The notes below the pieces were generated by a model, which saw only the letters and a program-made list of their open reading frames with translations, did not search any database and was not told the DNA's origin. Positions 23,498 through 64,000 of a DNA stretch of 64,000 nt are shown here, piece by piece. The position numbers and the translations under genes were made by a program. Numbering within the stretch: the stretch's first letter is position 1; each line of letters begins with the position of its first letter. The stretch lies in NCBI GenBank assembly GCA_963966185.1, contig CAWZYM010000220.1, positions 92,501-156,500 of the forward strand. The letters run 5' to 3'. The stretch is from Rhabditoides inermis. Its lineage: Eukaryota; Nematoda; Chromadorea; Rhabditida; Rhabditidae.

Positions 23498-23544
23498 TCC
23501 ACGTTGTGGCCGTGGCGACACAGGTTCGATTCCTGTCATAGGCA
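23498..23544 (+). pseudogene. 5-prime-truncated tRNA-His at array boundary
   Basis: Starts abruptly at the anticodon arm (TCCACGTTGTGG) and is complete to the 3-prime end. The D-arm and A-box are replaced by unique sequence, so this is the left breakpoint of the array. Confidence 0.85.
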
Positions 23545-23612
23545 TTTCTTTTCCTTTCTTCGTTGTCCAGATCAAGCCTGCGCATATCCGATTTCTGGGA
23601 TATCAAGAACCA

Positions 23613-23684
23613 GCGTCTGTGGTGTAATGGTCAGCATGGATGCCTTCCAAGCATTCGACGGGGGTTCGATTCCCCCCAGACGCA
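23613..23684 (+). tRNA. tRNA-Gly(TCC)
   Basis: Leading partial unit. It has Gly-a 5-prime flank and Gly-b 3-prime flank, i.e. a fused single-Gly arrangement. Confidence 0.93.
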
Positions 23685-23781
23685 TAACGTTTTGCCCTAT
23701 TCAAAATATTTTCAGCATCACTATTCGCGTGCTTTTGCAGCGTGCGATCGAATATCGGCGGAGAATGGAGAGGAATCTGAA

Positions 23782-23854
23782 GCCTCGTTAGCTCAGTTGG
23801 TAGAGCGTTAGACTTTTAATCTAACGGCCACGGGTTCGAGTCCCGTACGGGGCT
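23782..23854 (+). tRNA. tRNA-Lys(TTT)
   Basis: Unit 1, type copy. It is 73 nt with acceptor stem GCCTCGT/ACGGGGC, anticodon loop CTTTTAA (anticodon TTT, reads Lys AAA/AAG), T-stem ACGGG/CCCGT, A-box TAGCTCAGTTGG and B-box GGTTCGAGTCC. The base after the stem (position 73) is T, whereas animal tRNA-Lys normally has G. T4 and T5 terminators lie 5-15 nt downstream. Confidence 0.95.
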
Positions 23855-23974
23855 GTAATTTTGCTATTTTTGGATCAATGCTACTGATTCTTTCATCATT
23901 TCGCGGACGTACCTTGCAATCTTTGTCGGCGCCTTTTGCCAACACTTCCACGCTATTAGACAGCCGTTCTCTCG

Positions 23975-24046
23975 GCCTATGTAGTATAGTGGTTAGTGCT
24001 CCACGTTGTGGCCGTGGCGACACAGGTTCGATTCCTGTCATAGGCA
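23975..24046 (+). tRNA. tRNA-His(GTG)
   Basis: Unit 1, slot a, type copy. It is 72 nt with acceptor GCCTATG/CATAGGC, anticodon stem CCACG/CGTGG, loop TTGTGGC (anticodon GTG), T-stem ACAGG/CCTGT and discriminator A. The genomic base at -1 is G. It carries G instead of A in AGTGCTCC. Confidence 0.95.
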
Positions 24047-24259
24047 TTTCCTTTTTGTAAACGTCGTCGCTCACGAAAAACTTTTGTCTGACCAACTTCG
24101 AATAAAGTTGATCGTGGGAGAACGGAAAACAGTCTTGAAGGTCCTGGAAGTGTTTCATTTCTTAGCCACTTGCAACTTGCAACTTATTGTGTATGTATGA
24201 GTATGAGAGTATGTGTATGAATGTAACATCATCACGCAATTATTTTAGCTCAGTTATTG

Positions 24260-24331
24260 GCCTATGTAGTATAGTGGTTAGTACTCCACGTTGTGGCCGT
24301 GGCGACACAGGTTCGATTCCTGTCATAGGCA
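24260..24331 (+). tRNA. tRNA-His(GTG)
   Basis: Unit 1, slot b. Preceded by a TTAGCTCAGTT string resembling the start of the array's tRNA-Lys. Its 3-prime flank (TTCCTTTTCC) differs from that of slot a. Confidence 0.95.
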
Positions 24332-24399
24332 TTCCTTTTCCTTTCTCCGTTGTCCAGATCAAGCCTGCGCATATCCGATTTCTGGGAGATCAAGAACAA

Positions 24400-24471
24400 G
24401 CGTCTGTGGTGTAATGGTCAGCATGGATGCCTTCCAAGCATTCGACGGGGGTTCGATTCCCCCCAGACGCA
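24400..24471 (+). tRNA. tRNA-Gly(TCC)
   Basis: Unit 1, slot a, type copy. It is 72 nt with acceptor GCGTCTG/CAGACGC, anticodon loop CTTCCAA (anticodon TCC, reads GGA/GGG), T-stem GGGGG/CCCCC, B-box GGTTCGATTCC and discriminator A. Confidence 0.95.
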
Positions 24472-24544
24472 TGACATTTTGCAAATTTGTGAAAAGAATG
24501 AGTGCTCGGGCACGAAACCGCTCAGTAAGAGCACTCTCACATGA

Positions 24545-24616
24545 GCGTCTGTGGTGTAATGGTCAGCATGGATGCCTTCCAAGCATTCGACGGGGGTTCG
24601 ATTCCCCCCAGACGCA
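24545..24616 (+). tRNA. tRNA-Gly(TCC)
   Basis: Unit 1, slot b. Same gene sequence as slot a; different flanks (ACATGA upstream, TAACGTTTTGCCC downstream). Confidence 0.95.
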
Positions 24617-24713
24617 TAACGTTTTGCCCTATTAAAAATAATTTCAGCATCACTACTCGCGTGCTTTTGCAGCGTGCGATCGAATATCGGCGGAGAATGG
24701 AGAGGAATCTGAA

Positions 24714-24786
24714 GCCTCGTTAGCTCAGTTGGTAGAGCGTTAGACTTTTAATCTAACGGCCACGGGTTCGAGTCCCGTACGGGGCT
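24714..24786 (+). tRNA. tRNA-Lys(TTT)
   Basis: Unit 2. Confidence 0.95.
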
Positions 24787-24906
24787 GTAATTTTGCTATT
24801 TTTGGATCAATGCTACTGATTCTTTCATCATTTCGCGGACGTACCTTGCAATCTTTGTCGGCGCCTTTTGCCAACACTTCCACGCTATTAGACAGCCGTT
24901 CTCTCG

Positions 24907-24978
24907 GCCTATGTAGTATAGTGGTTAGTACTCCACGTTGTGGCCGTGGCGACACAGGTTCGATTCCTGTCATAGGCA
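24907..24978 (+). tRNA. tRNA-His(GTG)
   Basis: Unit 2, slot a. Confidence 0.95.
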
Positions 24979-25191
24979 TTTCCTTTTTGTAAACGTCGTC
25001 GCTCACGAAAAACTTTTGTCTGACCAACTTCGAATAAAGTTGATCGTGGGAGAACGGAAAACAGTCTTGAAGGTCCTGGAAGTGTTTCATTTCTTAGCCA
25101 CTTGCAACTTGCAACTTATTGTGTATGTATGAGTATGAGAGTATGTGTATGAATGTAACATCATCACGCAATTATTTTAGCTCAGTTATTG

Positions 25192-25263
25192 GCCTATGTA
25201 GTATAGTGGTTAGTACTCCACGTTGTGGCCGTGGCGACACAGGTTCGATTCCTGTCATAGGCA
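25192..25263 (+). tRNA. tRNA-His(GTG)
   Basis: Unit 2, slot b. Confidence 0.95.
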
Positions 25264-25331
25264 TTCCTTTTCCTTTCTCCGTTGTCCAGATCAAGCCTGC
25301 GCATATCCGATTTCTGGGAGATCAAGAACAA

Positions 25332-25403
25332 GCGTCTGTGGTGTAATGGTCAGCATGGATGCCTTCCAAGCATTCGACGGGGGTTCGATTCCCCCCAGAC
25401 GCA
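25332..25403 (+). tRNA. tRNA-Gly(TCC)
   Basis: Unit 2, slot a. Confidence 0.95.
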
Positions 25404-25476
25404 TGACATTTTGCAAATTTGTGAAAAGAATGAGTGCTCGGGCACGAAACCGCTCAGTAAGAGCACTCTCACATGA

Positions 25477-25548
25477 GCGTCTGTGGTGTAATGGTCAGCA
25501 TGGATGCCTTCCAAGCATTCGACGGGGGTTCGATTCCCCCCAGACGCA
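25477..25548 (+). tRNA. tRNA-Gly(TCC)
   Basis: Unit 2, slot b. Confidence 0.95.
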
Positions 25549-25645
25549 TAACGTTTTGCCCTATTAAAAATAATTTCAGCATCACTACTCGCGTGCTTTT
25601 GCAGCGTGCGATCGAATATCGGCGGAGAATGGAGAGGAATCTGAA

Positions 25646-25718
25646 GCCTCGTTAGCTCAGTTGGTAGAGCGTTAGACTTTTAATCTAACGGCCACGGGTT
25701 CGAGTCCCGTACGGGGCT
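25646..25718 (+). tRNA. tRNA-Lys(TTT)
   Basis: Unit 3 (668 bp). Trailer variant with a T7 run. Confidence 0.95.
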
Positions 25719-26004
25719 GTAATTTAGCTTTTTTTGGATCAATGCTACTGATTCTTTCATCATTTCGCGGACGTACCTTGCAATCTTTGTCGGCGCCTTT
25801 TGCCAACACTTCCACGCTATTAGACAGCCGTTCTCACCAACTTCGAATAAAGTTGATCGTGGGAGAACGGAAAACAGTCTTGAAGGTCCTGGAAGTGTTT
25901 CATTTCTTAGCCACTTGCAACTTGCAACTTATTGTGTATGTATGAGTATGAGAGTATGTGTATGAATGTAACATCATCACGCAATTATTTTAGCTCAGTT
26001 ATTG

Positions 26005-26076
26005 GCCTATGTAGTATAGTGGTTAGTACTCCACGTTGTGGCCGTGGCGACACAGGTTCGATTCCTGTCATAGGCA
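26005..26076 (+). tRNA. tRNA-His(GTG)
   Basis: Unit 3, slot b; slot a is removed by a 119-bp deletion. Confidence 0.95.
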
Positions 26077-26144
26077 TTCCTTTTCCTTTCTCCGTTGTCC
26101 AGATCAAGCCTGCGCATATCCGATTTCTGGGAGATCAAGAACAA

Positions 26145-26216
26145 GCGTCTGTGGTGTAATGGTCAGCATGGATGCCTTCCAAGCATTCGACGGGGGTTCG
26201 ATTCCCCCCAGACGCA
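26145..26216 (+). tRNA. tRNA-Gly(TCC)
   Basis: Unit 3, single fused Gly slot. Confidence 0.95.
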
Positions 26217-26313
26217 TAACGTTTTGCCCTATTAAAAATAATTTCAGCATCACTACTCGCGTGCTTTTGCAGCGTGCGATCGAATATCGGCGGAGAATGG
26301 AGAGGAATCTGAA

Positions 26314-26386
26314 GCCTCGTTAGCTCAGTTGGTAGAGCGTTAGACTTTTAATCTAACGGCCACGGGTTCGAGTCCCGTACGGAACT
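26314..26386 (+). tRNA. tRNA-Lys(TTT), acceptor-mismatched copy
   Basis: Unit 4. The 3-prime acceptor strand is ACGGAAC instead of ACGGGGC, giving two adjacent C.A mismatches at pairs 2-71 and 3-70. Promoter boxes are intact. Confidence 0.7.
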
Positions 26387-26506
26387 GTAATTTTGCTATT
26401 TTTGGATCAATGCTACTGATTCTTTTATCATTTCGCGGACGTACCTTGCAATCTTTGTCGGCGCCTTTTGCCAACACTTCCACGCTATTAGACAGCCGTT
26501 CTCTCG

Positions 26507-26578
26507 GCCTATGTAGTATAGTGGTTAGTGCTCCACGTTGTGGCCGTGGCGACACAGGTTCGATTCCTGTCATAGGCA
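26507..26578 (+). tRNA. tRNA-His(GTG)
   Basis: Unit 4, slot a; AGTGCTCC variant as in unit 1. Confidence 0.95.
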
Positions 26579-26791
26579 TTTCCTTTTTGTAAACGTCGTC
26601 GCTCACGAAAAACTTTTGTCTGACCAACTTCGAATAAAGTTGATCGTGGGAGAACGGAAAACAGTCTTGAAGGTCCTGGAAGTGTTTCATTTCTTAGCCA
26701 CTTGCAACTTGCAACTTATTGTGTATGTATGAGTATGAGAGTATGTGTATGAATGTAACATCATCACGCAATTATTTTAGCTCAGTTATTG

Positions 26792-26863
26792 GCCTATGTA
26801 GTATAGTGGTTAGTACTCCACGTTGTGGCCGTGGCGACACAGGTTCGATTCCTGTCATAGGCA
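26792..26863 (+). tRNA. tRNA-His(GTG)
   Basis: Unit 4, slot b. Confidence 0.95.
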
Positions 26864-26931
26864 TTCCTTTTCCTTTCTCCGTTGTCCAGATCAAGCCTGC
26901 GCATATCCGATTTCTGGGAGATCAAGAACAA

Positions 26932-27003
26932 GCGTCTGTGGTGTAATGGTCAGCATGGATGCCTTCCAAGCATTCGACGGGGGTTCGATTCCCCCCAGAC
27001 GCA
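26932..27003 (+). tRNA. tRNA-Gly(TCC)
   Basis: Unit 4, slot a. Confidence 0.95.
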
Positions 27004-27076
27004 TGACATTTTGCAAATTTGTGAAAAGAATGAGTGCTCGGGCACGAAACCGCTCAGTAAGAGCACTCTCACATGA

Positions 27077-27148
27077 GCGTCTGTGGTGTAATGGTCAGCA
27101 TGGATGCCTTCCAAGCATTCGACGGGGGTTCGATTCCCCCCAGACGCA
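27077..27148 (+). tRNA. tRNA-Gly(TCC)
   Basis: Unit 4, slot b. Confidence 0.95.
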
Positions 27149-27245
27149 TAACGTTTTGCCCTATTAAAAATAATTTCAGCATCACTACTCGCGTGCTTTT
27201 GCAGCGTGCGATCGAATATCGGCGGAGAATGGAGAGGAATCTGAA

Positions 27246-27318
27246 GCCTCGTTAGCTCAGTTGGTAGAGCGTTAGACTTTTAATCTAACGGCCACGGGTT
27301 CGAGTCCCGTACGGGGCT
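27246..27318 (+). tRNA. tRNA-Lys(TTT)
   Basis: Unit 5. Confidence 0.95.
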
Positions 27319-27438
27319 GTAATTTTGCTATTTTTGGATCAATGCTACTGATTCTTTCATCATTTCGCGGACGTACCTTGCAATCTTTGTCGGCGCCTTT
27401 TGCCAACACTTCCACGCTATTAGACAGCCGTTCTCTCG

Positions 27439-27510
27439 GCCTATGTAGTATAGTGGTTAGTACTCCACGTTGTGGCCGTGGCGACACAGGTTCGATTCCT
27501 GTCATAGGCA
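27439..27510 (+). tRNA. tRNA-His(GTG)
   Basis: Unit 5, slot a. Confidence 0.95.
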
Positions 27511-27723
27511 TTTCCTTTTTGTAAACGTCGTCGCTCACGAAAAACTTTTGTCTGACCAACTTCGAATAAAGTTGATCGTGGGAGAACGGAAAACAGTCTT
27601 GAAGGTCCTGGAAGTGTTTCATTTCTTAGCCACTTGCAACTTGCAACTTATTGTGTATGTATGAGTATGAGAGTATGTGTATGAATGTAACATCATCACG
27701 CAATTATTTTAGCTCAGTTATTG

Positions 27724-27795
27724 GCCTATGTAGTATAGTGGTTAGTACTCCACGTTGTGGCCGTGGCGACACAGGTTCGATTCCTGTCATAGGCA
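27724..27795 (+). tRNA. tRNA-His(GTG)
   Basis: Unit 5, slot b. Confidence 0.95.
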
Positions 27796-27863
27796 TTCCT
27801 TTTCCTTTCTCCGTTGTCCAGATCAAGCCTGCGCATATCCGATTTCTGGGAGATCAAGAACAA

Positions 27864-27935
27864 GCGTCTGTGGTGTAATGGTCAGCATGGATGCCTTCCA
27901 AGCATTCGACGGGGGTTCGATTCCCCCCAGACGCA
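27864..27935 (+). tRNA. tRNA-Gly(TCC)
   Basis: Unit 5, slot a. Confidence 0.95.
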
Positions 27936-28008
27936 TGACATTTTGCAAATTTGTGAAAAGAATGAGTGCTCGGGCACGAAACCGCTCAGTAAGAGCACTC
28001 TCACATGA

Positions 28009-28080
28009 GCGTCTGTGGTGTAATGGTCAGCATGGATGCCTTCCAAGCATTCGACGGGGGTTCGATTCCCCCCAGACGCA
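28009..28080 (+). tRNA. tRNA-Gly(TCC)
   Basis: Unit 5, slot b. Confidence 0.95.
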
Positions 28081-28177
28081 TAACGTTTTGCCCTATTAAA
28101 AATAATTTCAGCATCACTACTCGCGTGCTTTTGCAGCGTGCGATCGAATATCGGCGGAGAATGGAGAGGAATCTGAA

Positions 28178-28250
28178 GCCTCGTTAGCTCAGTTGGTAGA
28201 GCGTTAGACTTTTAATCTAACGGCCACGGGTTCGAGTCCCGTAGGGGGCT
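28178..28250 (+). tRNA. tRNA-Lys(TTT)
   Basis: Unit 6 (668 bp). Acceptor strand is AGGGGGC: one G.G mismatch at pair 6-67. Confidence 0.85.
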
Positions 28251-28536
28251 GTAATTTAGCTTTTTTTGGATCAATGCTACTGATTCTTTCATCATTTCGC
28301 GGACGTACCTTGCAATCTTTGTCGGCGCCTTTTGCCAACACTTCCACGCTATTAGACAGCCGTTCTCACCAACTTCGAATAAAGTTGATCGTGGGAGAAC
28401 GGAAAACAGTCTTGAAGGTCCTGGAAGTGTTTCATTTCTTAGCCACTTGCAACTTGCAACTTATTGTGTATGTATGAGTATGAGAGTATGTGTATGAATG
28501 TAACATCATCACGCAATTATTTTAGCTCAGTTATTG

Positions 28537-28608
28537 GCCTATGTAGTATAGTGGTTAGTACTCCACGTTGTGGCCGTGGCGACACAGGTTCGATTCCTGT
28601 CATAGGCA
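28537..28608 (+). tRNA. tRNA-His(GTG)
   Basis: Unit 6, slot b; slot a deleted as in unit 3. Confidence 0.95.
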
Positions 28609-28676
28609 TTCCTTTTCCTTTCTCCGTTGTCCAGATCAAGCCTGCGCATATCCGATTTCTGGGAGATCAAGAACAA

Positions 28677-28748
28677 GCGTCTGTGGTGTAATGGTCAGCA
28701 TGGATGCCTTCCAAGCATTCGACGGGGGTTCGATTCCCCCCAGACGCA
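28677..28748 (+). tRNA. tRNA-Gly(TCC)
   Basis: Unit 6, single Gly slot. Confidence 0.95.
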
Positions 28749-28845
28749 TAACGTTTTGCCCTATTAAAAATAATTTCAGCATCACTACTCGCGTGCTTTT
28801 GCAGCGTGCGATCGAATATCGGCGGAGAATGGAGAGGAATCTGAA

Positions 28846-28918
28846 GCCTCGTTAGCTCAGTTGGTAGAGCGTTAGACTTTTAATCTAACGGCCACGGGTT
28901 CGAGTCCCGTACGGAACT
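28846..28918 (+). tRNA. tRNA-Lys(TTT), acceptor-mismatched copy
   Basis: Unit 7; ACGGAAC acceptor variant. Confidence 0.7.
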
Positions 28919-29038
28919 GTAATTTTGCTATTTTTGGATCAATGCTACTGATTCTTTTATCATTTCGCGGACGTACCTTGCAATCTTTGTCGGCGCCTTT
29001 TGCCAACACTTCCACGCTATTAGACAGCCGTTCTCTCG

Positions 29039-29110
29039 GCCTATGTAGTATAGTGGTTAGTACTCCACGTTGTGGCCGTGGCGACACAGGTTCGATTTCT
29101 GTCATAGGCA
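29039..29110 (+). tRNA. tRNA-His(GTG)
   Basis: Unit 7, slot a; T-stem C61 to T, leaving a G-U pair. Confidence 0.92.
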
Positions 29111-29323
29111 TTTCCTTTTTGTAAACGTCGTCGCTCACGAAAAACTTTTGTCTGACCAACTTCGAATAAAGTTGATCGTGGGAGAACGGAAAACAGTCTT
29201 GAAGGTCCTGGAAGTGTTTCATTTCTTAGCCACTTGCAACATGCAACTTATTGTGTATGTATGAGTATGAGAGTATGTGTATGAATGTAACATCATCACG
29301 CAATTATTTTAGCTCAGTTATTG

Positions 29324-29395
29324 GCCTATGTAGTATAGTGGTTAGTACTCCACGTTGTGGCCGTGGCGACACAGGTTCGATTCCTGTCATAGGCA
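29324..29395 (+). tRNA. tRNA-His(GTG)
   Basis: Unit 7, slot b. Confidence 0.95.
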
Positions 29396-29463
29396 TTCCT
29401 TTTCCTTTCTCCGTTGTCCAGATCAAGCCTGCGCATATCCGATTTCTGGGAGATCAAGAACAA

Positions 29464-29535
29464 GCGTATGTGGTGTAATGGTCAGCATGGATGCCTTCCA
29501 AGCATTCGACGGGGGTTCGATTCCCCCCAGACGCA
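29464..29535 (+). tRNA. tRNA-Gly(TCC)
   Basis: Unit 7, slot a; GCGTATG acceptor, one A.G mismatch. Confidence 0.85.
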
Positions 29536-29608
29536 TGACATTTTGCAAATTTGTGAAAAGAATGAGTGCTCGGGCACGAAACCGCTCAGTAAGAGCACTC
29601 TCACATGA

Positions 29609-29679
29609 GCGTCTGTGGTGTAATGGTCAGCATGGATGCCTTCCAAGCATTCGACGGGGTTCGATTCCCCCCAGACGCA
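29609..29679 (+). tRNA. tRNA-Gly(TCC)
   Basis: Unit 7, slot b; one G of the T-stem run deleted (71 nt). Confidence 0.8.
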
Positions 29680-29776
29680 TAACGTTTTGCCCTATTAAAA
29701 ATAATTTCAGCATCACTACTCGCGTGCTTTTGCAGCGTGCGATCGAATATCGGCGGAGAATGGAGAGGAATCTGAA

Positions 29777-29849
29777 GCCTCGTTAGCTCAATTGGTAGAG
29801 CGTTAGACTTTTAATCTAACGGCCACGGGTTCGAGTCCCGTACGGGGCT
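29777..29849 (+). tRNA. tRNA-Lys(TTT)
   Basis: Unit 8; GCTCAATTGG in the D-loop instead of GCTCAGTTGG. The 725-bp insertion follows in the spacer. Confidence 0.9.
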
Positions 29850-29950
29850 GTAATTTAGCTTTTTTTGGATCAATGCTACTGATTCTTTCATCATTTCGCG
29901 GACGTACCTTGCAATCTTTGTCGGCGCCTTTTGCCAACACTTCCACGCTA

Positions 29951-30679
29951 TTATCTTTCAAAAGTACTTCCAAGTAAAAGTAGTTGGTTTGTACCGTTGT
30001 CTCAGTTGAGCAAAAGGACTGACATGTTTTCAATGGAGACATGTGCCAACAGGCTCTCTCTCTCATACCAGTGCAAAGCGGCCATATTATAATGAACGCG
30101 TTTACGAAGTTATGCAGTTATTATCTAAAAGCATAACTTCTGTTGTAACATAACACGTCGAATAATGCTGAGAGCCTGTTTGCACATGTCTCCATTGAAA
30201 ACATGTCAGTCCTTTTGCTCAACTGAGACAACGGTACAAACCAACTACTTTTACTTGGAAGTACTTTTGAAAGATAATATCTGTCCTTTCCTTAAGTTTT
30301 GTTTCACAAAATTACATTTTCATACACGTTCGCGATTCGCTGCGAGGATACCGACGCGCACCCGCTATTCGCCTATCTCTCTCTCTCTCACTCACACACA
30401 GAGGGGGCGGGGCGAAAGCGATTGTCCGACGCCCGCCCGCCCGCCCGACACCAATCTCAATCCGCACTCGAATGCGGACTCTCCGTATCTCGCTTCAAAT
30501 TCAATCAAACTCAATACAACTTTCTATAACTCTATCGAATAGAGATGTGAATGCAATGTAACAGTGGAAATCACTTCAAAATGAGGAAAAGTGCTTCATC
30601 CGGGAAAAGCCGTTTTTGAGCATTCTAGCGCGCGGGGACATCCAGTACAAACGAGAGGGCGCTGGCGCGCCCTCTCTAA
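29951..30679. mobile_element. 725-bp insertion with 108-bp foldback arms, copy 1
   Basis: Interrupts the Lys to His-a spacer of unit 8 at GCTATTA/GACAG. The inserted bases are about 29954-30678, with ATTA on both sides. The left part is a foldback: arm 29951-30058 and arm 30170-30277 are inverted copies with one mismatch around a 111-bp loop. The right part includes a CT/CA tract, a (CCCG)n run and, just before the junction, a palindrome GAGAGGGCGC-TGGC-GCGCCCTCTC followed by TAA. A short hairpin then CTAA resembles a Helitron 3-prime end. No coding capacity seen. Confidence 0.8.
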
Positions 30680-30698
30680 TTAGACAGCCGTTCTCTCG

Positions 30699-30770
30699 GC
30701 CTATGTAATATAGTGGTTAGTACTCCACGTTGTGGCCGTGGCGACACAGGTTCGATTCCTGTCATAGGCA
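30699..30770 (+). tRNA. tRNA-His(GTG)
   Basis: Unit 8, slot a; A-box variant TGTAATATAGTGG (G to A). Confidence 0.88.
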
Positions 30771-30983
30771 TTTCCTTTTTGTAAACGTCGTCGCTCACGA
30801 AAAACTTTTGTCTGACCAACTTCGAATAAAGTTGATCGTGGGAGAACGGAAAACAGTCTTGAAGGTCCTGGAAGTGTTTCATTTCTTAGCCACTTGCAAC
30901 ATGCAACTTATTGTGTATGTATGAGTATGAGAGTATGTGTATGAATGTAACATCATCACGCAATTATTTTAGCTCAGTTATTG

Positions 30984-35920: not shown

Positions 35921-36021
35921 GTAATTTAGCTTTTTTTGGATCAATGCTACTGATTCTTTCATCATTTCGCGGACGTACCTTGCAATCTTTGTCGGCGCCT
36001 TTTGCCAACACTTCCACGCTA

Positions 36022-36750
36022 TTATCTTTCAAAAGTACTTCCAAGTAAAAGTAGTTGGTTTGTACCGTTGTCTCAGTTGAGCAAAAGGACTGACATGTTT
36101 TCAATGGAGACATGTGCCAACAGGCTCTCTCTCTCTCATACCAGTGCAAAGCGGCCATATTATAATGAACGCGTTTACGAAGTTATGCAGTTATTATCTA
36201 AAAGCATAACTTCTGTTGTAACATAACACGTCGAATAATGCTGAGAGCCTGTTTGCACATGTCTCCATTGAAAACATGTCAGTCCTTTTGCTCAACTGAG
36301 ACAACGGTACAAACCAACTACTTTTACTTGGAAGTACTTTTGAAAGATAATATCTGTCCTTTCCTTAAGTTTTGTTTCACAAAATTACATTTTCATACAC
36401 GTTCGCGATTCGCTGCGAGGATACCGACGCGCACCCGCTATTCGCCTATCTCTCTCTCTCACTCACACACAGAGGGGGCGGGGCGAAAGCGATTGTCCGA
36501 CGCCCGCCCGCCCGCCCGACACCAATCTCAATCCGCACTCGAATGCGGACTCTCCGTATCTCGCTTCAAATTCAATCAAACTCAATACAACTTTCTATAA
36601 CTCTATCGAATAGAGATGTGAATGCAATGTAACAGTGGAAATCACTTCAAAATGAGGAAAAGTGCTTCATCCGGGAAAAGCCGTTTTTGAGCATTCTAGC
36701 GCGCGGGGACATCCAGTACAAACGAGAGGGCGCTGGCGCGCCCTCTCTAA
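36022..36750. mobile_element. 725-bp insertion with 108-bp foldback arms, copy 2
   Basis: Same insertion, same position and same flanks as in unit 8, located 6,071 bp further right. The neighbouring Lys and His-a genes carry the same private variants as in unit 8. It therefore spread by duplication of array segments, not by a second transposition. Confidence 0.8.
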
Positions 36751-36769
36751 TTAGACAGCCGTTCTCTCG

Positions 36770-40782: not shown

Positions 40783-40859
40783 GCGTCTGTGGTGTAATGG
40801 TCAGCATGGATGCCTTCCAAGCATTCGACGGGGTTTCGTCCCCCCCCCCCCCAGACGCA
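40783..40859 (+). pseudogene. tRNA-Gly(TCC) pseudogene with poly-C expansion
   Basis: Unit 18, slot a. The T-arm reads GGGGTTTCGT followed by 13 C, so the B-box GGTTCGATTCC is destroyed. Acceptor and anticodon arms are intact. Confidence 0.85.
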
Positions 40860-55362: not shown

Positions 55363-55437
55363 GCGTCTGTGGTGTAATGGTCAGCATGGATGCCTTCCAA
55401 GCATTCGACGGGGTTTCGTCCCCCCCCCCCAGACGCA
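55363..55437 (+). pseudogene. tRNA-Gly(TCC) pseudogene with poly-C expansion
   Basis: Unit 35, slot a. Same lesion as in unit 18 but with a C run two bases shorter. Confidence 0.85.
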
Positions 55438-56611: not shown

Positions 56612-56684
56612 GCCTCGTTAGCTCAGTTGGTAGAGCGTTAGACTTTTAATCTAACGGCCACGGGTTCGAGTCCCGTACGGGGCT
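56612..56684 (+). tRNA. tRNA-Lys(TTT)
   Basis: Unit 37. Confidence 0.95.
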
Positions 56685-56804
56685 GTAATTTTGCTATTTT
56701 TGGATCAATGCTACTGATTCTTTCATCATTTCGCGGACGTACCTTGCAATCTTTGTCGGCGCCTTTTGCCAACACTTCCACGCTATTAGACAGCCGTTCT
56801 CTCG

Positions 56805-56876
56805 GCCTATGTAGTATAGTGGTTAGTACTCCACGTTGTGGCCGTGGCGACACAGGTTCGATTCCTGTCATAGGCA
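56805..56876 (+). tRNA. tRNA-His(GTG)
   Basis: Unit 37, slot a. Confidence 0.95.
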
Positions 56877-57089
56877 TTTCCTTTTTGTAAACGTCGTCGC
56901 TCACGAAAAACTTTTGTCTGACCAACTTCGAATAAAGTTGATCGTGGGAGAACGGAAAACAGTCTTGAAGGTCCTGGAAGTGTTTCATTTCTTAGCCACT
57001 TGCAACTTGCAACTTATTGTGTATGTATGAGTATGAGAGTATGTGTATGAATGTAACATCATCACGCAATTATTTTAGCTCAGTTATTG

Positions 57090-57161
57090 GCCTATGTAGT
57101 ATAGTGGTTAGTACTCCACGTTGTGGCCGTGGCGACACAGGTTCGATTCCTGTCATAGGCA
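57090..57161 (+). tRNA. tRNA-His(GTG)
   Basis: Unit 37, slot b. Confidence 0.95.
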
Positions 57162-57229
57162 TTCCTTTTCCTTTCTCCGTTGTCCAGATCAAGCCTGCGC
57201 ATATCCGATTTCTGGGAGATCAAGAACAA

Positions 57230-57301
57230 GCGTCTGTGGTGTAATGGTCAGCATGGATGCCTTCCAAGCATTCGACGGGGCATCGATTCCCCCCAGACGC
57301 A
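57230..57301 (+). tRNA. tRNA-Gly(TCC), B-box mutated
   Basis: Unit 37, slot a. GGGGCATCGATT replaces GGGGGTTCGATT, changing invariant G53 and T54 of the B-box. Likely poorly transcribed. Confidence 0.6.
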
Positions 57302-57374
57302 TGACATTTTGCAAATTTGTGAAAAGAATGAGTGCTCGGGCACGAAACCGCTCAGTAAGAGCACTCTCATATGA

Positions 57375-57446
57375 GCGTCTGTGGTGTAATGGTCAGCATG
57401 GATGCCTTCCAAGCATTCGACGGGGGTTCGATTCCCCCCAGACGCA
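57375..57446 (+). tRNA. tRNA-Gly(TCC)
   Basis: Unit 37, slot b. Confidence 0.95.
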
Positions 57447-57543
57447 TAACGTTTTGCCCTATTAAAAATAATTTCAGCATCACTACTCGCGTGCTTTTGC
57501 AGCGTGCGATCGAATATCGGCGGAGAATGGAGAGGAATCTGAA

Positions 57544-57616
57544 GCCTCGTTAGCTCAGTTAGTAGAGCGTTAGACTTTTAATCTAACGGCCACGGGTTCG
57601 AGTCCCGTACGGGGCT
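57544..57616 (+). tRNA. tRNA-Lys(TTT)
   Basis: Unit 38 (646 bp); one of the two D-loop GG bases is A (CAGTTAGTAG). Confidence 0.82.
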
Positions 57617-57736
57617 GTAATTTTGCTATTTTTGGATCAATGCTACTGATTCTTTCATCATTTCGCGGACGTACCTTGCAATCTTTGTCGGCGCCTTTTG
57701 CCAACACTTCCACGCTATTAGACAGCCGTTCTCTCG

Positions 57737-57808
57737 GCCTATGTAGTATAGTGGTTAGTACTCCACGTTGTGGCCGTGGCGACACAGGTTCGATTCCTGT
57801 CATAGGCA
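57737..57808 (+). tRNA. tRNA-His(GTG)
   Basis: Unit 38, single His with slot-a 5-prime and slot-b 3-prime flank. Confidence 0.95.
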
Positions 57809-57876
57809 TTCCTTTTCCTTTCTCCGTTGTCCAGATCAAGCCTGCGCATATCCGATTTCTGGGAGATCAAGAACAA

Positions 57877-57948
57877 GCGTCTGTGGTGTAATGGTCAGCA
57901 TGGATGCCTTCCAAGCATTCGACGGGGGTTCGATTCCCCCCAGACGCA
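57877..57948 (+). tRNA. tRNA-Gly(TCC)
   Basis: Unit 38, slot a. Confidence 0.95.
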
Positions 57949-58021
57949 TGACATTTTGCAAATTTGTGAAAAGAAAGAGTGCTCGGGCACGAAACCGCTC
58001 AGTAAGAGCACTCTCAAATGA

Positions 58022-58092
58022 GCGTCTGTGGTGTAATGGTCAGCATGGATGCCTTCCAAGCATTCGACGGTGGTTCGATTCCCCCAGACGCA
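58022..58092 (+). tRNA. tRNA-Gly(TCC), T-arm variant
   Basis: Unit 38, slot b; GGTGG T-stem and one C deleted (71 nt). Confidence 0.75.
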
Positions 58093-58189
58093 TAACGTTT
58101 TGCCCTATTAAAAATAATTTCAGCATCACTACTCGCGTGCTTTTGCAGCGTGCGATCGAATATCGGCGGAGAATGGAGAGGAATCTGAA

Positions 58190-58262
58190 GCCTCGTTAGC
58201 TCAGTTGGTAGAGCGTTAGACTTTTAATCTAACGGCCACGGGTTCGAGTCCCGTACGGGGCT
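58190..58262 (+). tRNA. tRNA-Lys(TTT)
   Basis: Unit 39 (646 bp). Confidence 0.95.
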
Positions 58263-58382
58263 GTAATTTTGCTATTTTTGGATCAATGCTACTGATTCTT
58301 TCATCATTTCGCGGACGTACCTTGCAATCTTTGTCGGCGCCTTTTGCCAACACTTCCACGCTATTAGACAGCCGTTCTCTCG

Positions 58383-58454
58383 GCCTATGTAGTATAGTGG
58401 TTAGTACTCCACGTTGTGGCCGTGGCGACACAGGTTCGATTCCTGTCATAGGCA
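58383..58454 (+). tRNA. tRNA-His(GTG)
   Basis: Unit 39, single His. Confidence 0.95.
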
Positions 58455-58522
58455 TTCCTTTTCCTTTCTCCGTTGTCCAGATCAAGCCTGCGCATATCCG
58501 ATTTCTGGGAGATCAAGAACAA

Positions 58523-58594
58523 GCGTCTGTGGTGTAATGGTCAGCATGGATGCCTTCCAAGCATTCGACGGGGGTTCGATTCCCCCCAGACGCA
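58523..58594 (+). tRNA. tRNA-Gly(TCC)
   Basis: Unit 39, slot a. Confidence 0.95.
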
Positions 58595-58667
58595 TGACAT
58601 TTTGCAAATTTGTGAAAAGAAAGAGTGCTCGGGCACGAAACCGCTCAGTAAGAGCACTCTCAAATGA

Positions 58668-58738
58668 GCGTCTGTGGTGTAATGGTCAGCATGGATGCCT
58701 TCCAAGCATTCGACGGTGGTTCGATTCCCCCAGACGCA
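58668..58738 (+). tRNA. tRNA-Gly(TCC), T-arm variant
   Basis: Unit 39, slot b; as unit 38. Confidence 0.75.
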
Positions 58739-58835
58739 TAACGTTTTGCCCTATTAAAAATAATTTCAGCATCACTACTCGCGTGCTTTTGCAGCGTGCG
58801 ATCGAATATCGGCGGAGAATGGAGAGGAATCTGAA

Positions 58836-58908
58836 GCCTCGTTAGCTCAGTTGGTAGAGCGTTAGACTTTTAATCTAACGGCCACGGGTTCGAGTCCCGT
58901 ACGGGGCT
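58836..58908 (+). tRNA. tRNA-Lys(TTT)
   Basis: Unit 40 (646 bp). Confidence 0.95.
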
Positions 58909-59028
58909 GTAATTTTGCTATTTTTGGATCAATGCTACTGATTCTTTCATCATTTCGCGGACGTACCTTGCAATCTTTGTCGGCGCCTTTTGCCAACACT
59001 TCCACGCTATTAGACAGCCGTTCTCTCG

Positions 59029-59100
59029 GCCTATGTAGTATAGTGGTTAGTACTCCACGTTGTGGCCGTGGCGACACAGGTTCGATTCCTGTCATAGGCA
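59029..59100 (+). tRNA. tRNA-His(GTG)
   Basis: Unit 40, single His. Confidence 0.95.
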
Positions 59101-59168
59101 TTCCTTTTCCTTTCTCCGTTGTCCAGATCAAGCCTGCGCATATCCGATTTCTGGGAGATCAAGAACAA

Positions 59169-59240
59169 GCGTCTGTGGTGTAATGGTCAGCATGGATGCC
59201 TTCCAAGCATTCGACGGGGGTTCGATTCCCCCCAGACGCA
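59169..59240 (+). tRNA. tRNA-Gly(TCC)
   Basis: Unit 40, slot a. Confidence 0.95.
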
Positions 59241-59313
59241 TGACATTTTGCAAATTTGTGAAAAGAAAGAGTGCTCGGGCACGAAACCGCTCAGTAAGAG
59301 CACTCTCAAATGA

Positions 59314-59384
59314 GCGTCTGTGGTGTAATGGTCAGCATGGATGCCTTCCAAGCATTCGACGGTGGTTCGATTCCCCCAGACGCA
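59314..59384 (+). tRNA. tRNA-Gly(TCC), T-arm variant
   Basis: Unit 40, slot b; as unit 38. Confidence 0.75.
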
Positions 59385-59481
59385 TAACGTTTTGCCCTAT
59401 TAAAAATAATTTCAGCATCACTACTCGCGTGCTTTTGCAGCGTGCGATCGAATATCGGCGGAGAATGGAGAGGAATCTGAA

Positions 59482-59554
59482 GCCTCGTTAGCTCAGTTGG
59501 TAGAGCGTTAGACTTTTAATCTAACGGCCACGGGTTCGAGTCCCGTACGGGGCT
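59482..59554 (+). tRNA. tRNA-Lys(TTT)
   Basis: Unit 41 (646 bp). Confidence 0.95.
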
Positions 59555-59674
59555 GTAATTTTGCTATTTTTGGATCAATGCTACTGATTCTTTCATCATT
59601 TCGCGGACGTACCTTGCAATCTTTGTCGGCGCCTTTTGCCAACACTTCCACGCTATTAGACAGCCGTTCTCTCG

Positions 59675-59746
59675 GCCTATGTAGTATAGTGGTTAGTACT
59701 CCACGTTGTGGCCGTGGCGACACAGGTTCGATTCCTGTCATAGGCA
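59675..59746 (+). tRNA. tRNA-His(GTG)
   Basis: Unit 41, single His. Confidence 0.95.
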
Positions 59747-59814
59747 TTCCTTTTCCTTTCTCCGTTGTCCAGATCAAGCCTGCGCATATCCGATTTCTGG
59801 GAGATCAAGAACAA

Positions 59815-59886
59815 GCGTCTGTGGTGTAATGGTCAGCATGGATGCCTTCCAAGCATTCGACGGGGGTTCGATTCCCCCCAGACGCA
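59815..59886 (+). tRNA. tRNA-Gly(TCC)
   Basis: Unit 41, slot a. Confidence 0.95.
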
Positions 59887-59959
59887 TGACATTTTGCAAA
59901 TTTGTGAAAAGAAAGAGTGCTCGGGCACGAAACCGCTCAGTAAGAGCACTCTCAAATGA

Positions 59960-60030
59960 GCGTCTGTGGTGTAATGGTCAGCATGGATGCCTTCCAAGCA
60001 TTCGACGGTGGTTCGATTCCCCCAGACGCA
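59960..60030 (+). tRNA. tRNA-Gly(TCC), T-arm variant
   Basis: Unit 41, slot b; as unit 38. Confidence 0.75.
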
Positions 60031-60127
60031 TAACGTTTTGCCCTATTAAAAATAATTTCAGCATCACTACTCGCGTGCTTTTGCAGCGTGCGATCGAATA
60101 TCGGCGGAGAATGGAGAGGAATCTGAA

Positions 60128-60200
60128 GCCTCGTTAGCTCAGTTGGTAGAGCGTTAGACTTTTAATCTAACGGCCACGGGTTCGAGTCCCGTACGGGGCT
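60128..60200 (+). tRNA. tRNA-Lys(TTT)
   Basis: Unit 42. Confidence 0.95.
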
Positions 60201-60320
60201 GTAATTTTGCTATTTTTGGATCAATGCTACTGATTCTTTCATCATTTCGCGGACGTACCTTGCAATCTTTGTCGGCGCCTTTTGCCAACACTTCCACGCT
60301 ATTAGACAGCCGTTCTCTCG

Positions 60321-60392
60321 GCCTATGTAGTATAGTGGTTAGTACTCCACGTTGTGGCCGTGGCGACACAGGTTCGATTCCTGTCATAGGCA
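60321..60392 (+). tRNA. tRNA-His(GTG)
   Basis: Unit 42, slot a. Confidence 0.95.
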
Positions 60393-60605
60393 TTTCCTTT
60401 TTGTAAACGTCGTCGCTCACGAAAAACTTTTGTCTGACCAACTTCGAATAAAGTTGATCGTGGGAGAACGGAAAACAGTCTTGAAGGTCCTGGAAGTGTT
60501 TCATTTCTTAGCCACTTGCAACTTGCAACTTATTGTGTATGTATGAGTATGAGAGTATGTGTATGAATGTAACATCATCACGCAATTATTTTAGCTCAGT
60601 TATTG

Positions 60606-60677
60606 GCCTATGTAGTATAGTGGTTAGTACTCCACGTTGTGGCCGTGGCGACACAGGTTCGATTCCTGTCATAGGCA
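60606..60677 (+). tRNA. tRNA-His(GTG)
   Basis: Unit 42, slot b. Confidence 0.95.
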
Positions 60678-60745
60678 TTCCTTTTCCTTTCTCCGTTGTC
60701 CAGATCAAGCCTGCGCATATACGATTTCTGGGAGATCAAGAACAA

Positions 60746-60817
60746 GCGTCTGTGGTGTAATGGTCAGCATGGATGCCTTCCAAGCATTCGACGGGGCATC
60801 GATTCCCCCCAGACGCA
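60746..60817 (+). tRNA. tRNA-Gly(TCC), B-box mutated
   Basis: Unit 42, slot a; same GGGGCATCG lesion as unit 37. Confidence 0.6.
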
Positions 60818-60890
60818 TGACATTTTGCAAATTTGTGAAAAGAATGAGTGCTCGGGCACGAAACCGCTCAGTAAGAGCACTCTCACATGA

Positions 60891-60962
60891 GCGTCTGTGG
60901 TGTAATGGTCAGCATGGATGCCTTCCAAGCATTCGACGGGGGTTCGATTCCCCCCAGACGCA
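60891..60962 (+). tRNA. tRNA-Gly(TCC)
   Basis: Unit 42, slot b. Confidence 0.95.
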
Positions 60963-61059
60963 TAACGTTTTGCCCTATTAAAAATAATTTCAGCATCACT
61001 ACTCGCGTGCTTTTGCAGCGTGCGATCGATTATCGGCGGAGAATGGAGAGGAATCTGAA

Positions 61060-61132
61060 GCCTCGTTAGCTCAGTTGGTAGAGCGTTAGACTTTTAATCT
61101 AACGGCCACGGGTTCGAGTCCCGTACGGGGCT
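61060..61132 (+). tRNA. tRNA-Lys(TTT)
   Basis: Unit 43 (966 bp). Confidence 0.95.
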
Positions 61133-61252
61133 GTAATTTTGCTATTTTTGGATCAATGCTACTGATTCTTTCATCATTTCGCGGACGTACCTTGCAATCT
61201 TTGTCGGCGCCTTTTGCCAACACTTCCACGCTATTAGACAGCCATTCTCTCG

Positions 61253-61324
61253 GCCTATGTAGTATAGTGGTTAGTACTCCACGTTGTGGCCGTGGCGACA
61301 CAGGTTCGATTCCTGTCATAGGCA
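61253..61324 (+). tRNA. tRNA-His(GTG)
   Basis: Unit 43, slot a. Confidence 0.95.
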
Positions 61325-61571
61325 TTTCCTTTTTGTAAACGTCGTCGCTCACGAAAAACTTTTGTCTGACCAACTTCGAATAAAGTTGATCGTGGGAGAA
61401 CGGAAAAACTTTTGTCTGACCAACTTCGAATAAACGGCCACGGGTCTTGAAGGTCCTGGAAGTGTTTCATTTCTTAGCCACTTGCAACTTGCAACTTATT
61501 GTGTATGTATGAGTATGAGAGTATGTGTATGAATGTAACATCATCACGCAACTATTTTAGCTCAGTTATTG

Positions 61572-61643
61572 GCCTATGTAGTATAGTGGTTAGTACTCCA
61601 CGTTGTGGCCGTGGCGACACAGGTTCGATTCCTGTCATAGGCA
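61572..61643 (+). tRNA. tRNA-His(GTG)
   Basis: Unit 43, slot b; shifted by a 34-bp spacer insertion. Confidence 0.95.
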
Positions 61644-61711
61644 TTCCTTTTCCTTTCTCCGTTGTCCAGATCAAGCCTGCGCATATCCGATTTCTGGGAG
61701 ATCAAGAACAA

Positions 61712-61783
61712 GCGTCTGTGGTGTAATGGTCAGCATGGATGCCTTCCAAGCATTCGACGGGGGTTCGATTCCCCCCAGACGCA
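61712..61783 (+). tRNA. tRNA-Gly(TCC)
   Basis: Unit 43, slot a. Confidence 0.95.
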
Positions 61784-61856
61784 TGACATTTTGCAAATTT
61801 GTGAAAAGAATGAGTGCTCGGGCACGAAACCGCTCAGTAAGAGCACTCTCACATGA

Positions 61857-61928
61857 GCGTCTGTGGTGTAATGGTCAGCATGGATGCCTTCCAACCATTC
61901 GACGGGGGTTCGATTCCCCCCAGACGCA
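61857..61928 (+). tRNA. tRNA-Gly(TCC)
   Basis: Unit 43, slot b; G39 to C (CCAACCATT), a C.C mismatch in the anticodon stem. Confidence 0.85.
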
Positions 61929-62025
61929 TAACGTTTTGCCCTATTAAAAATAATTTCAGCATCACTACTCGCGTGCTTTTGCAGCGTGCGATCGAATATC
62001 GGCGGAGAATGGAGAGGAATCTGAA

Positions 62026-62098
62026 GCCTCGTTAGCTCAGTTGGTAGAGCGTTAGACTTTTAATCTAACGGCCACGGGTTCGAGTCCCGTACGGGGCT
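62026..62098 (+). tRNA. tRNA-Lys(TTT)
   Basis: Unit 44. Confidence 0.95.
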
Positions 62099-62218
62099 GT
62101 AATTTAGCTTTTTTTGGATCAATGCTACTGATTCTTTCATCATTTCGCGGACGTACCTTGCAATCTTTGTCGGCGCCTTTTGCCAACACTTCCACGCTAT
62201 TAGACAGCCGTTCTTTCG

Positions 62219-62290
62219 GCCTATGTAGTATAGTGGTTAGTACTCCACGTTGTGGCCGTGGCGACACAGGTTCGATTCCTGTCATAGGCA
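62219..62290 (+). tRNA. tRNA-His(GTG)
   Basis: Unit 44, slot a. Confidence 0.95.
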
Positions 62291-62503
62291 TTTCCTTTTT
62301 GTAAACGTCGTCGCTCACGAAAAACTTTTGTCTGACCAACTTCGAATAAAGTTGATCGTGGGAGAACGGAAAACAGTCTTGAAGGTCCTGGAAGTGTTTC
62401 ATTTCTTAGCCACTTGCAACTTGCAACTTATTGTGTATGTATGAGTATGAGAGTATGTGTATGAATGTAACATCATCACGCAACTATTTTAGCTCAGTTA
62501 TTG

Positions 62504-62575
62504 GCCTATGTAGTATAGTGGTTAGTACTCCACGTTGTGGCCGTGGCGACACAGGTTCGATTCCTGTCATAGGCA
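62504..62575 (+). tRNA. tRNA-His(GTG)
   Basis: Unit 44, slot b. Confidence 0.95.
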
Positions 62576-62643
62576 TTCCTTTTCCTTTCTCCGTTGTCCA
62601 GATCAAGCCTGCGCATATCCGATTTCTGCGAGATCAAGAACAA

Positions 62644-62715
62644 GCGTCTGTGGTGTAATGGTCAGCATGGATGCCTTCCAAGCATTCGACGGGGGTTCGA
62701 TTCCCCCCAGACGCA
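62644..62715 (+). tRNA. tRNA-Gly(TCC)
   Basis: Unit 44, slot a. Confidence 0.95.
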
Positions 62716-62788
62716 TGACATTTTGCAAATTTGTGAAAAGAATGAGTGCTCGGGCACGAAACCGCTCAGTAAGAGCACTCTCATATGA

Positions 62789-62860
62789 GCGTCTGTGGTG
62801 TAATGGTCAGCATGGATGCCTTCCAAGCATTCGACGGGGGTTCGATTCCCCCCAGACGCA
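62789..62860 (+). tRNA. tRNA-Gly(TCC)
   Basis: Unit 44, slot b. Confidence 0.95.
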
Positions 62861-62957
62861 TAACGTTTTGCCCTATTAAAAATAATTTCAGCATCACTAC
62901 TCGCGTGCTTTTGCAGCGTGCGATCGAATATCGGCGGAGAATGGAGAGGAATCTGAA

Positions 62958-63341
62958 GCCTCGTTAGCTCAGTTGGTAGAGCGTTAGACTTTTAAAGGGA
63001 GTGTACCCTCTGGTTTTCGAAGTTGAGTTAGCATCGGAAAGTGAAAATACATCAAAAATGATACACTTTTGTCAATTGGACCATATGCCGCAAATGGCGG
63101 GAAGTTAGAGAAACCATCATCAACCGTGCACGTTTGTGCACATTTCTGCACACTTTTCTCTAAAAAGAGCGTACTCGAGCGCAAGTTACACAAACTTCAA
63201 GGCGATTTGAGCATAACTTTTCTATGAGAAAGTATGATATTTATGACATATTTCAATATTCTGATGCTAACTCAACTTCGAAAACCAGAGGGTACACTTC
63301 CTTTAATCTAACGGCCACGGGTTCGAGTCCCGTACGGGGCT
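62958..63341 (+). pseudogene. tRNA-Lys(TTT) split by a MITE in its anticodon loop
   Basis: Unit 45. Bases 1-38 lie at 62958-62995 and the remaining 35 at 63307-63341. The insertion duplicates TTAA, which is anticodon positions 35-36 plus loop positions 37-38. A- and B-boxes are now about 310 bp too far apart. Confidence 0.95.
62996..63302. mobile_element. 307-bp piggyBac-like MITE
   Basis: Terminal inverted repeats of 40 bp (62996-63035 and 63263-63302) start AGG[G/A]AGTGTACCCTCTGG and differ at one position. The element is flanked by TTAA duplications (62992-62995 and 63303-63306), the target-site hallmark of the piggyBac superfamily. The interior has no coding capacity, so it is non-autonomous. 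Confidence 0.9.
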
Positions 63342-63461
63342 GTAATTTTGCTATTTTTGGATCAATGCTACTGATTCTTTCATCATTTCGCGGACGTACC
63401 TTGCAATCTTTGTCGGCGCCTTTTGCCAACACTTCCACGCTATTAGACAGCCGTTCTCTCG

Positions 63462-63533
63462 GCCTATGTAGTATAGTGGTTAGTACTCCACGTTGTGGCC
63501 GTGGCGACACAGGTTCGATTCCTGTCATAGGCA
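63462..63533 (+). tRNA. tRNA-His(GTG)
   Basis: Unit 45, slot a. Confidence 0.95.
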
Positions 63534-63746
63534 TTTCCTTTTTGTAAACGTCGTCGCTCACGAAAAACTTTTGTCTGACCAACTTCGAATAAAGTTGATC
63601 GTGGGAGAACGGAAAACAGTCTTGAAGGTCCTGGAAGTGTTTCATTTCTTAGCCACTTGCAACTTGCAACTTATTGTGTATGTATGAGTATGAGAGTATG
63701 TGTATGAATGTAACATCATCACGCAACTATTTTAGCTCAGTTATTG

Positions 63747-63818
63747 GCCTATGTAGTATAGTGGTTAGTACTCCACGTTGTGGCCGTGGCGACACAGGTT
63801 CGATTCCTGTCATAGGCA
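63747..63818 (+). tRNA. tRNA-His(GTG)
   Basis: Unit 45, slot b. Confidence 0.95.
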
Positions 63819-63886
63819 TTCCTTTTCCTTTCTCCGTTGTCCAGATCAAGCCTGCGCATATCCGATTTCTGCGAGATCAAGAACAA

Positions 63887-63958
63887 GCGTCTGTGGTGTA
63901 ATGGTCAGCATGGATGCCTTCCAAGCATTCGACGGGGGTTCGATTCCCCCCAGACGCA
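63887..63958 (+). tRNA. tRNA-Gly(TCC)
   Basis: Unit 45, slot a. The window ends 42 bp further on, before slot b. Confidence 0.95.
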
Positions 63959-64000
63959 TGACATTTTGCAAATTTGTGAAAAGAATGAGTGCTCGGGCAC

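Follow-up and report, generated by a model that had tools for sequence, protein, structure and literature searches.

A tandem array of tRNA-Lys, tRNA-His and tRNA-Gly genes in the nematode Rhabditoides inermis

The genome assembly of Rhabditoides inermis (GCA_963966185.1; 172.6 Mb in 599 contigs) contains a long tandem array of tRNA genes of three species, Lys(TTT), His(GTG) and Gly(TCC), whose left end lies in the window analysed here, a stretch of 64,000 nucleotides that corresponds to positions 92,501-156,500 of contig CAWZYM010000220.1 (C220). The array consists of head-to-tail units that repeat the same tRNA genes and spacers, with a consensus of 932 bp and the gene order Lys-His-His-Gly-Gly (KHHGG), and it continues past the window to a total of about 240 kb. 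With moderate confidence, we read it as a true chromosomal array of the nematode, homogenised by unequal exchange and providing a dosage-type supply of tRNA.

Gene content and extent of the array

ARAGORN called 202 tRNA genes in the window (83 His(GTG), 75 Gly(TCC) and 44 Lys(TTT)), all on the forward strand and spanning 23,613-63,958, with no call in the 23.4 kb of the window that precede the array and none when the bases of the array were shuffled. BLAST added five damaged pieces: a truncated His gene at 23,498, where the left boundary of the array falls inside a gene, two Gly genes, and the two halves of a Lys gene split by an insert. These counts bear out a sequence-only reading of the stretch, which had proposed about 205 Lys, His and Gly genes in 45 units, the latter number matching the 44 Lys genes plus the split one. 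Twenty-three copies at 23.6-28 kb scored 63.6-74.5 bits against Rfam RF00005. The array is absent from the output of Tandem Repeats Finder because its unit exceeds the longest period used, 500.

A run of at least four T residues lies within 25 bases of the gene in all 202 cases, an A box is present in 199 and a B box in 194, and the three signals occur together in 191; the claim that boxes and terminators are intact everywhere is thus right for the terminators and too generous for the boxes. None of the 202 genes encodes CCA. The genes are therefore of the nuclear type, without CCA and with internal boxes and a T-run, and the head-to-tail, near-identical units that carry them have the form of a eukaryotic tandem array under concerted evolution with signals of the RNA polymerase III (Pol III) type, as had been proposed.

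The array does not stop at the window edge at 64,000 and runs on along C220 and contig C221. ARAGORN found 419 tRNA genes between the window start and the end of C220 at 203,237, 20 of them in a block of reversed orientation at 173.3-178.0 kb, and found none at 52.5-92.5 kb of the same contig. The opening 10 kb of C221 align with C220, beginning at about 180.66 kb, with 99.94% identity over 9.7 kb, and odd spacings recur in the same order further along both; from this identity and the agreement of the irregular spacings we conclude that the two contigs overlap by about 22 kb. Thirteen of 20 one-kilobase probes along C221 fell on the array; of the seven that did not, two, at 55 and 65 kb, lie within its span and the remaining five at 180 kb or beyond. 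The segment at 156-166 kb of C221 holds 54 tRNA genes, and that at 176.6-179.8 kb is inverted array, so that the single orientation noted at the outset holds within the window and is broken beyond it by inverted blocks on both contigs. Including interruptions, the locus extends for about 240 kb from C220 through about 180 kb of C221, the C221 part by sampling. Genome-wide matching of the gene sequences, with up to 3 mismatches and gaps disallowed, returned 256 Lys, 501 His and 623 Gly. With 308 genes on C220 ahead of the overlap and, on the sampled C221, at most about 165 Lys and about 333 His genes by subtraction and about 270 Gly genes by the C220 ratio, we estimate some 1,100 tRNA genes for the whole locus.

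Unit variants and sequence divergence

The unit is less uniform than first described. Among the 44 Lys-led groups of the window, 23 are KHHGG, 13 KHHG, 5 KHGG and 2 KHG, and one is double; exactly 932 bp are found in 13 of the 43 complete units. A normal unit of KHHGG over 932 bp had been claimed, and this is correct for about half of the groups as to gene order and for the smaller share just given as to length. On the whole forward strand of C220, 85 Lys-led groups comprise 48 KHHGG, 17 KHHG, 12 KHGG, 2 KHG, 2 KHHHGG and four others found once each. Certain lengths are frequent: 11 of the 16 complete KHHG units measure 787 or 792 bp, about 932 less 145 (one Gly gene and spacer); 10 of the 12 KHGG units measure 646 bp, about 932 less 285 (one His gene and spacer); and both KHHHGG units, at 1216 and 1224 bp, are about 932 plus the same 285. 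These common sizes fit exchange between the doubled His or the doubled Gly genes of a unit, and for His both reciprocal products, the loss and the gain, are present.

Units also recur as blocks. While 61 of the 83 units are distinct in sequence, one 646-bp unit occurs seven times and one 792-bp unit five times, and in one stretch 792- and 932-bp units mostly alternate; the recurrence and the alternation together indicate local block duplication. A spacer-variant pattern was found at 10 places, all on C220.

Of the 48 KHHGG units, the 42 with lengths of 925-945 bp were compared for divergence; they differ by 0.55% on average and by 1.8% at most. Amplification or homogenisation is therefore recent, as the near-identical spacers had suggested. 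A trace of transcription-associated mutation was looked for by setting the genes with their 20 upstream bases (55/463 sites variable) against the rest (39/475); the former vary slightly more, but not significantly so (p = 0.065).

Table 1. Features of the array in the window (window coordinates)
Feature	Position	Strand	Evidence or remark
Tandem tRNA array, window part	23498..64000	+	ARAGORN, BLAST; continues rightward on C220 and C221
Left edge: 3' 47 bases of tRNA-His adjoining non-array DNA	23498..23544	+	BLAST
Example full 932-bp unit, K-H-H-G-G	24713..25644	+	ARAGORN, unit comparison
tRNA-Lys(TTT) of example unit	24713..24787	+	ARAGORN
tRNA-His(GTG), copy 1 of example unit	24907..24978	+	ARAGORN
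tRNA-His(GTG), copy 2 of example unit	25192..25263	+	ARAGORN
tRNA-Gly(TCC), copy 1 of example unit	25332..25403	+	ARAGORN
tRNA-Gly(TCC), copy 2 of example unit	25477..25548	+	ARAGORN
848-bp Lys-His interval (usual 119 bp)	29851..30698	.	insert at about 29,950-30,688
Second 848-bp Lys-His interval	35922..36769	.	99.5% identical to the first and 6,071 bp from it; insert at about 36,021-36,759
Degenerate tRNA-Gly missed by ARAGORN	40783..40846	+	BLAST, 95% over 65 bases
Degenerate tRNA-Gly missed by ARAGORN	55363..55426	+	BLAST, 95% over 65 bases
Higher-order block: four consecutive 646-bp K-H-G-G units, three sequence-identical	57543..60126	+	
Short element with terminal inverted repeats (39/40 bases) and TTAA duplication	62996..63302	.	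duplication read by eye; splits tRNA-Lys at anticodon loop

Genes outside the array, inserts and flanks

Genes identical in sequence to those of the array lie on C87 for His, on C191 for Lys and on 12 further contigs for Gly. Nine dispersed genes were viewed (6 Gly, 1 His and 2 Lys); their flanks are unlike those of the array save for a few bases, and all nine carry a TTTTG trailer. As regards a tRNA-derived SINE family, the window copies stand head to tail, and most of the nine dispersed genes have, as judged by viewing, mutually unrelated flanks, with two pairs sharing theirs. The single tRNA-Lys genes on C191 and C105 have clearly related flanks and form an older dispersed duplicate pair. 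The tRNA-Gly genes on C29 and C28, with near-identical flanks, either stem from a duplication or represent a single locus on haplotype contigs. Genes for tRNA-Glu, tRNA-Met and tRNA-Pro are present outside the arrays in the segments viewed.

Only one His gene was found outside the array, that on C87. An assembly-wide pattern for His genes with a non-array 5' flank matched twice, each time on C221 at a position flanked by array probes. The C87 gene shares its last upstream bases with the array and therefore escapes this pattern, so others of that kind could be missed, as could multiply changed genes; with this caution, nearly all tRNA-His genes of the array sequence appear to sit in the array.

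The Gly genes have a second home. Their genome-wide matches divide into 420 forward and 203 reverse, a reverse-strand excess far above what the inverted array blocks explain. A 5'-flank Gly pattern matched 13 places, and a 3'-flank pattern 14 forward and 137 reverse; the first 100 of the latter pattern's matches, those listed, place the reverse-strand genes in a 152-bp array on contig C400. This second array repeats the same tRNA-Gly(TCC) on the reverse strand in a 152-bp unit with a different spacer; it starts at 175,061 and ends somewhere in the interval 206.4-208 kb, a length of about 31 kb with some 200 copies by spacing in the sampled array; in two larger segments all 59 called genes are Gly(TCC). 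A small forward Gly block lies on the same contig within 56,521-59,411. The 'Ser' genes that ARAGORN called on C400 are really Gly genes with a 9-bp internal duplication.

The two insert-bearing Lys-His intervals of Table 1 were duplicated along with array units. Their insert, which measures about 740 bp and contains an inverted repeat of 110 bp, has relatives elsewhere in the genome at 97-99% identity (positions 1437-2162 of the C221 219-223 kb segment and 9882-10000 of the C191 segment) and is probably a mobile element; Pfam gave no family for the 125-residue open reading frame of the copy at 29.9 kb. Elsewhere on C220, long His-His gaps (the usual length is 213 bp) occur at 164815-166055 (1241 bp), 189756-190527 and 202217-202988 (772 bp each), the latter two being identical and containing a stretch 92.5% like positions 3807-4356 of the same C221 segment. 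Three probes define a stretch at 50-66 kb of C221, inside the array, that is free of tRNA genes, a 0.5-kb probe at 50 kb among them giving none. It has a 281-residue open frame at 55 kb that by eye had been called a Polinton-type capsid gene, a call without support from Pfam, which assigned the frame to no family.

Upstream of the array, at about 83.4-84.7 kb of C220, lies a spliced PP1-type phosphatase gene whose closest relatives are nematode proteins. In the best 120 of 5,101 matches the named entries are mostly nematodes, with identities of 82% over 95% (Caenorhabditis japonica), 80-81% (several others), 84% over 73% (Ancylostoma ceylanicum) and 75% (Pristionchus pacificus); the two top-scoring matches are sturgeon records marked UNVERIFIED_CONTAM, at 58 and 55% identity, and a few plant, rotifer and Babesia proteins match at 54-61%. 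The flank between the gene and the array within the window (1-23400) is rich in CT/AG microsatellites, and beyond the right flank, at 219-223 kb of C221, are exons that by eye resemble ShKT domains.

Origin, function and precedents

How might such an array arise, and what might it do? In the reading we favour, a five-gene cassette Lys-His-His-Gly-Gly would have been duplicated head to tail, its near-uniformity being maintained by unequal crossing-over and gene conversion, as in ribosomal DNA (rDNA), while the doubled His and Gly genes would serve as internal recombination sites at which a unit drops or adds one gene. It is from the unit sizes and the repeated blocks that we infer this recombination. 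The internal A and B boxes would make most copies transcribable by Pol III, with termination at the T-run, and the array would most likely supply the bulk of tRNA-His and much of tRNA-Lys(UUU) and tRNA-Gly(UCC). The intact signals, the identity to dispersed genes, the scarcity of His genes elsewhere and the second Gly amplification all point to transcription and to a supply role, and a role in dosage seems likely.

Several observations weigh against this account. The reciprocal Gly gain, a KHHGGG unit, is missing among the C220 units, and a triple-Gly pattern matched 0 places; five KHHG units of 751-940 bp and two KHGG units of 818 and 848 bp are not simple exchange products, and a degenerate Gly gene is retained in two window units of those odd sizes. 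Adjacent 932-bp units are barely more alike than distant ones (3.1 vs 4.8 differences, 10 neighbour pairs). In the 42 compared units 28 of 363 gene sites and 30 of 569 spacer sites vary (p = 0.16), and in a wider set of 389 of 471 gene copies, the others excluded for length or for more than 8 differences, 43 of 363 gene and 39 of 475 spacer sites do so (p = 0.10); genes thus vary no less than spacers and show no sign of selection on the individual copy, which is what hundreds of redundant copies would lead one to expect. Between 14 and 31% of copies are changed, depending on the tRNA species. In other organisms, tRNA gene number is reported to track codon use only modestly in Phytophthora infestans (R = 0.41; PMC9584435) and not to track it in Entamoeba (PMC2652664).

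The strongest rival is that the repeat expanded neutrally or selfishly through unequal exchange, to which replication-fork stalling at tRNA genes may have contributed, and that most copies are silent while a minority supplies the cell; we regard it as quite possible, if clearly less probable than a supply role. The unseen per-copy constraint and the toleration of inserts and inversions suit it, as do a survey that ties tRNA clusters to fork stalling and instability (PMC2888827), the reported silencing of the Arabidopsis Ser-Tyr-Tyr (SYY) array in most tissues (PMC12308677) and the suspicion of the Entamoeba authors that many copies are silent (PMC2652664). It sits less well with the amplification of the same tRNA-Gly in two arrays with different spacers, with the 366 of 473 copies that are still perfect (164/190 His, 126/182 Gly and 76/101 Lys in a sample of C220 92.5-203.2 kb and C221 156-166 kb), and with the single His gene found elsewhere, which means that at least part of the array must work. 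A role outside translation, in tRNA-derived small RNAs or as an insulator or boundary in chromosome structure, seems improbable: a human tRNA repeat at 1q23.3 that binds CTCF offers a precedent (PMC4041453), whereas the spacers here are not more constant than the genes and nothing in the window favours it, no search for binding sites or domain borders having been made. Still less probable is an assembly artefact, a short cluster inflated by the assembler. C220 and C221 do both break within the array, where they overlap, and several genes near the C220 end carry one- or two-base length changes, but the prevalence of distinct units, the non-array DNA on both sides, the insert inside a gene, the inverted blocks and the close agreement of the overlapping contigs, down to the order of their odd spacings, would seem to lessen the concern.

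A bolder form of the supply reading, which we consider unlikely, is that nearly the whole tRNA-His and most of the tRNA-Lys(UUU) and tRNA-Gly(UCC) supply has moved into rDNA-like loci, Gly(UCC) having been amplified twice independently, driven by some abundant material rich in Gly, His and Lys; the unit might then be tissue-regulated, as in SYY, with an anticodon dosage adjustable by recombination. The demand idea rests on C. elegans, whose abundant genes are reported to use amino acids in line with the numbers of tRNA genes (PMC1779591). Identical tRNA-Trp genes of C. elegans are described as differing in tissue expression (PMC4999229).

Large tandem tRNA arrays are already known, in Phytophthora, Arabidopsis, Entamoeba and human, and the nematode case adds to them. 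The tRNA gene repeat of Xenopus laevis likewise has several tRNA genes per unit and many units at one site, with a longer unit and other tRNAs than the nematode array. That precedents are as few as the sequence-only reading supposed is not supported, given the arrays reported for P. infestans (PMC9584435) and Arabidopsis SYY (PMC12308677). A literature search by titles and the abstract openings of the top matches found no report of the Lys/His/Gly trio or of any nematode array. P. infestans is described as having 271 tRNA-Cys genes in one array whose repeat measures 513 nt, a dimeric Val-Ser unit of 850 nt, and mono-, di- and trimeric units whose copy number was checked by read depth, with about two-thirds of the families on a single chromosome and the arrays attributed to unequal crossing-over (PMC9584435). 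It shares with the nematode hundreds of near-identical tandem tRNA genes, and differs in being an oomycete with other tRNAs and many arrayed families. The SYY array resembles ours in its multi-gene unit with a doubled gene, its core and degenerate copies and its dispersed homologues; it is a plant array, far smaller, with 54 clustered Tyr genes and expression in the root cap (PMC12308677). In Entamoeba a tandem unit holds as many as five tRNA genes, although there almost all tRNA genes are reported to be arrayed, with intergenic short tandem repeats in two species (PMC2652664), whereas the arrays seen in the nematode are one of three tRNA species and one of Gly. The human 1q23.3 locus is again a tandem tRNA-bearing unit with copy variation, of 7.3 kb in 9-43 copies and with a CTCF site (PMC4041453), and in a survey of 74 genomes Nematostella and teleost fish are reported to have clusters numbering fifty or more (PMC2888827).

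With about a thousand genes for three tRNA species, the nematode case could make the question of demand versus tolerated repeat testable in a phylum with good genetics. If the near-absence of His genes elsewhere is genuine, the array would be essential. The units that have gained or lost a gene form a natural archive of recombination within tRNA genes.

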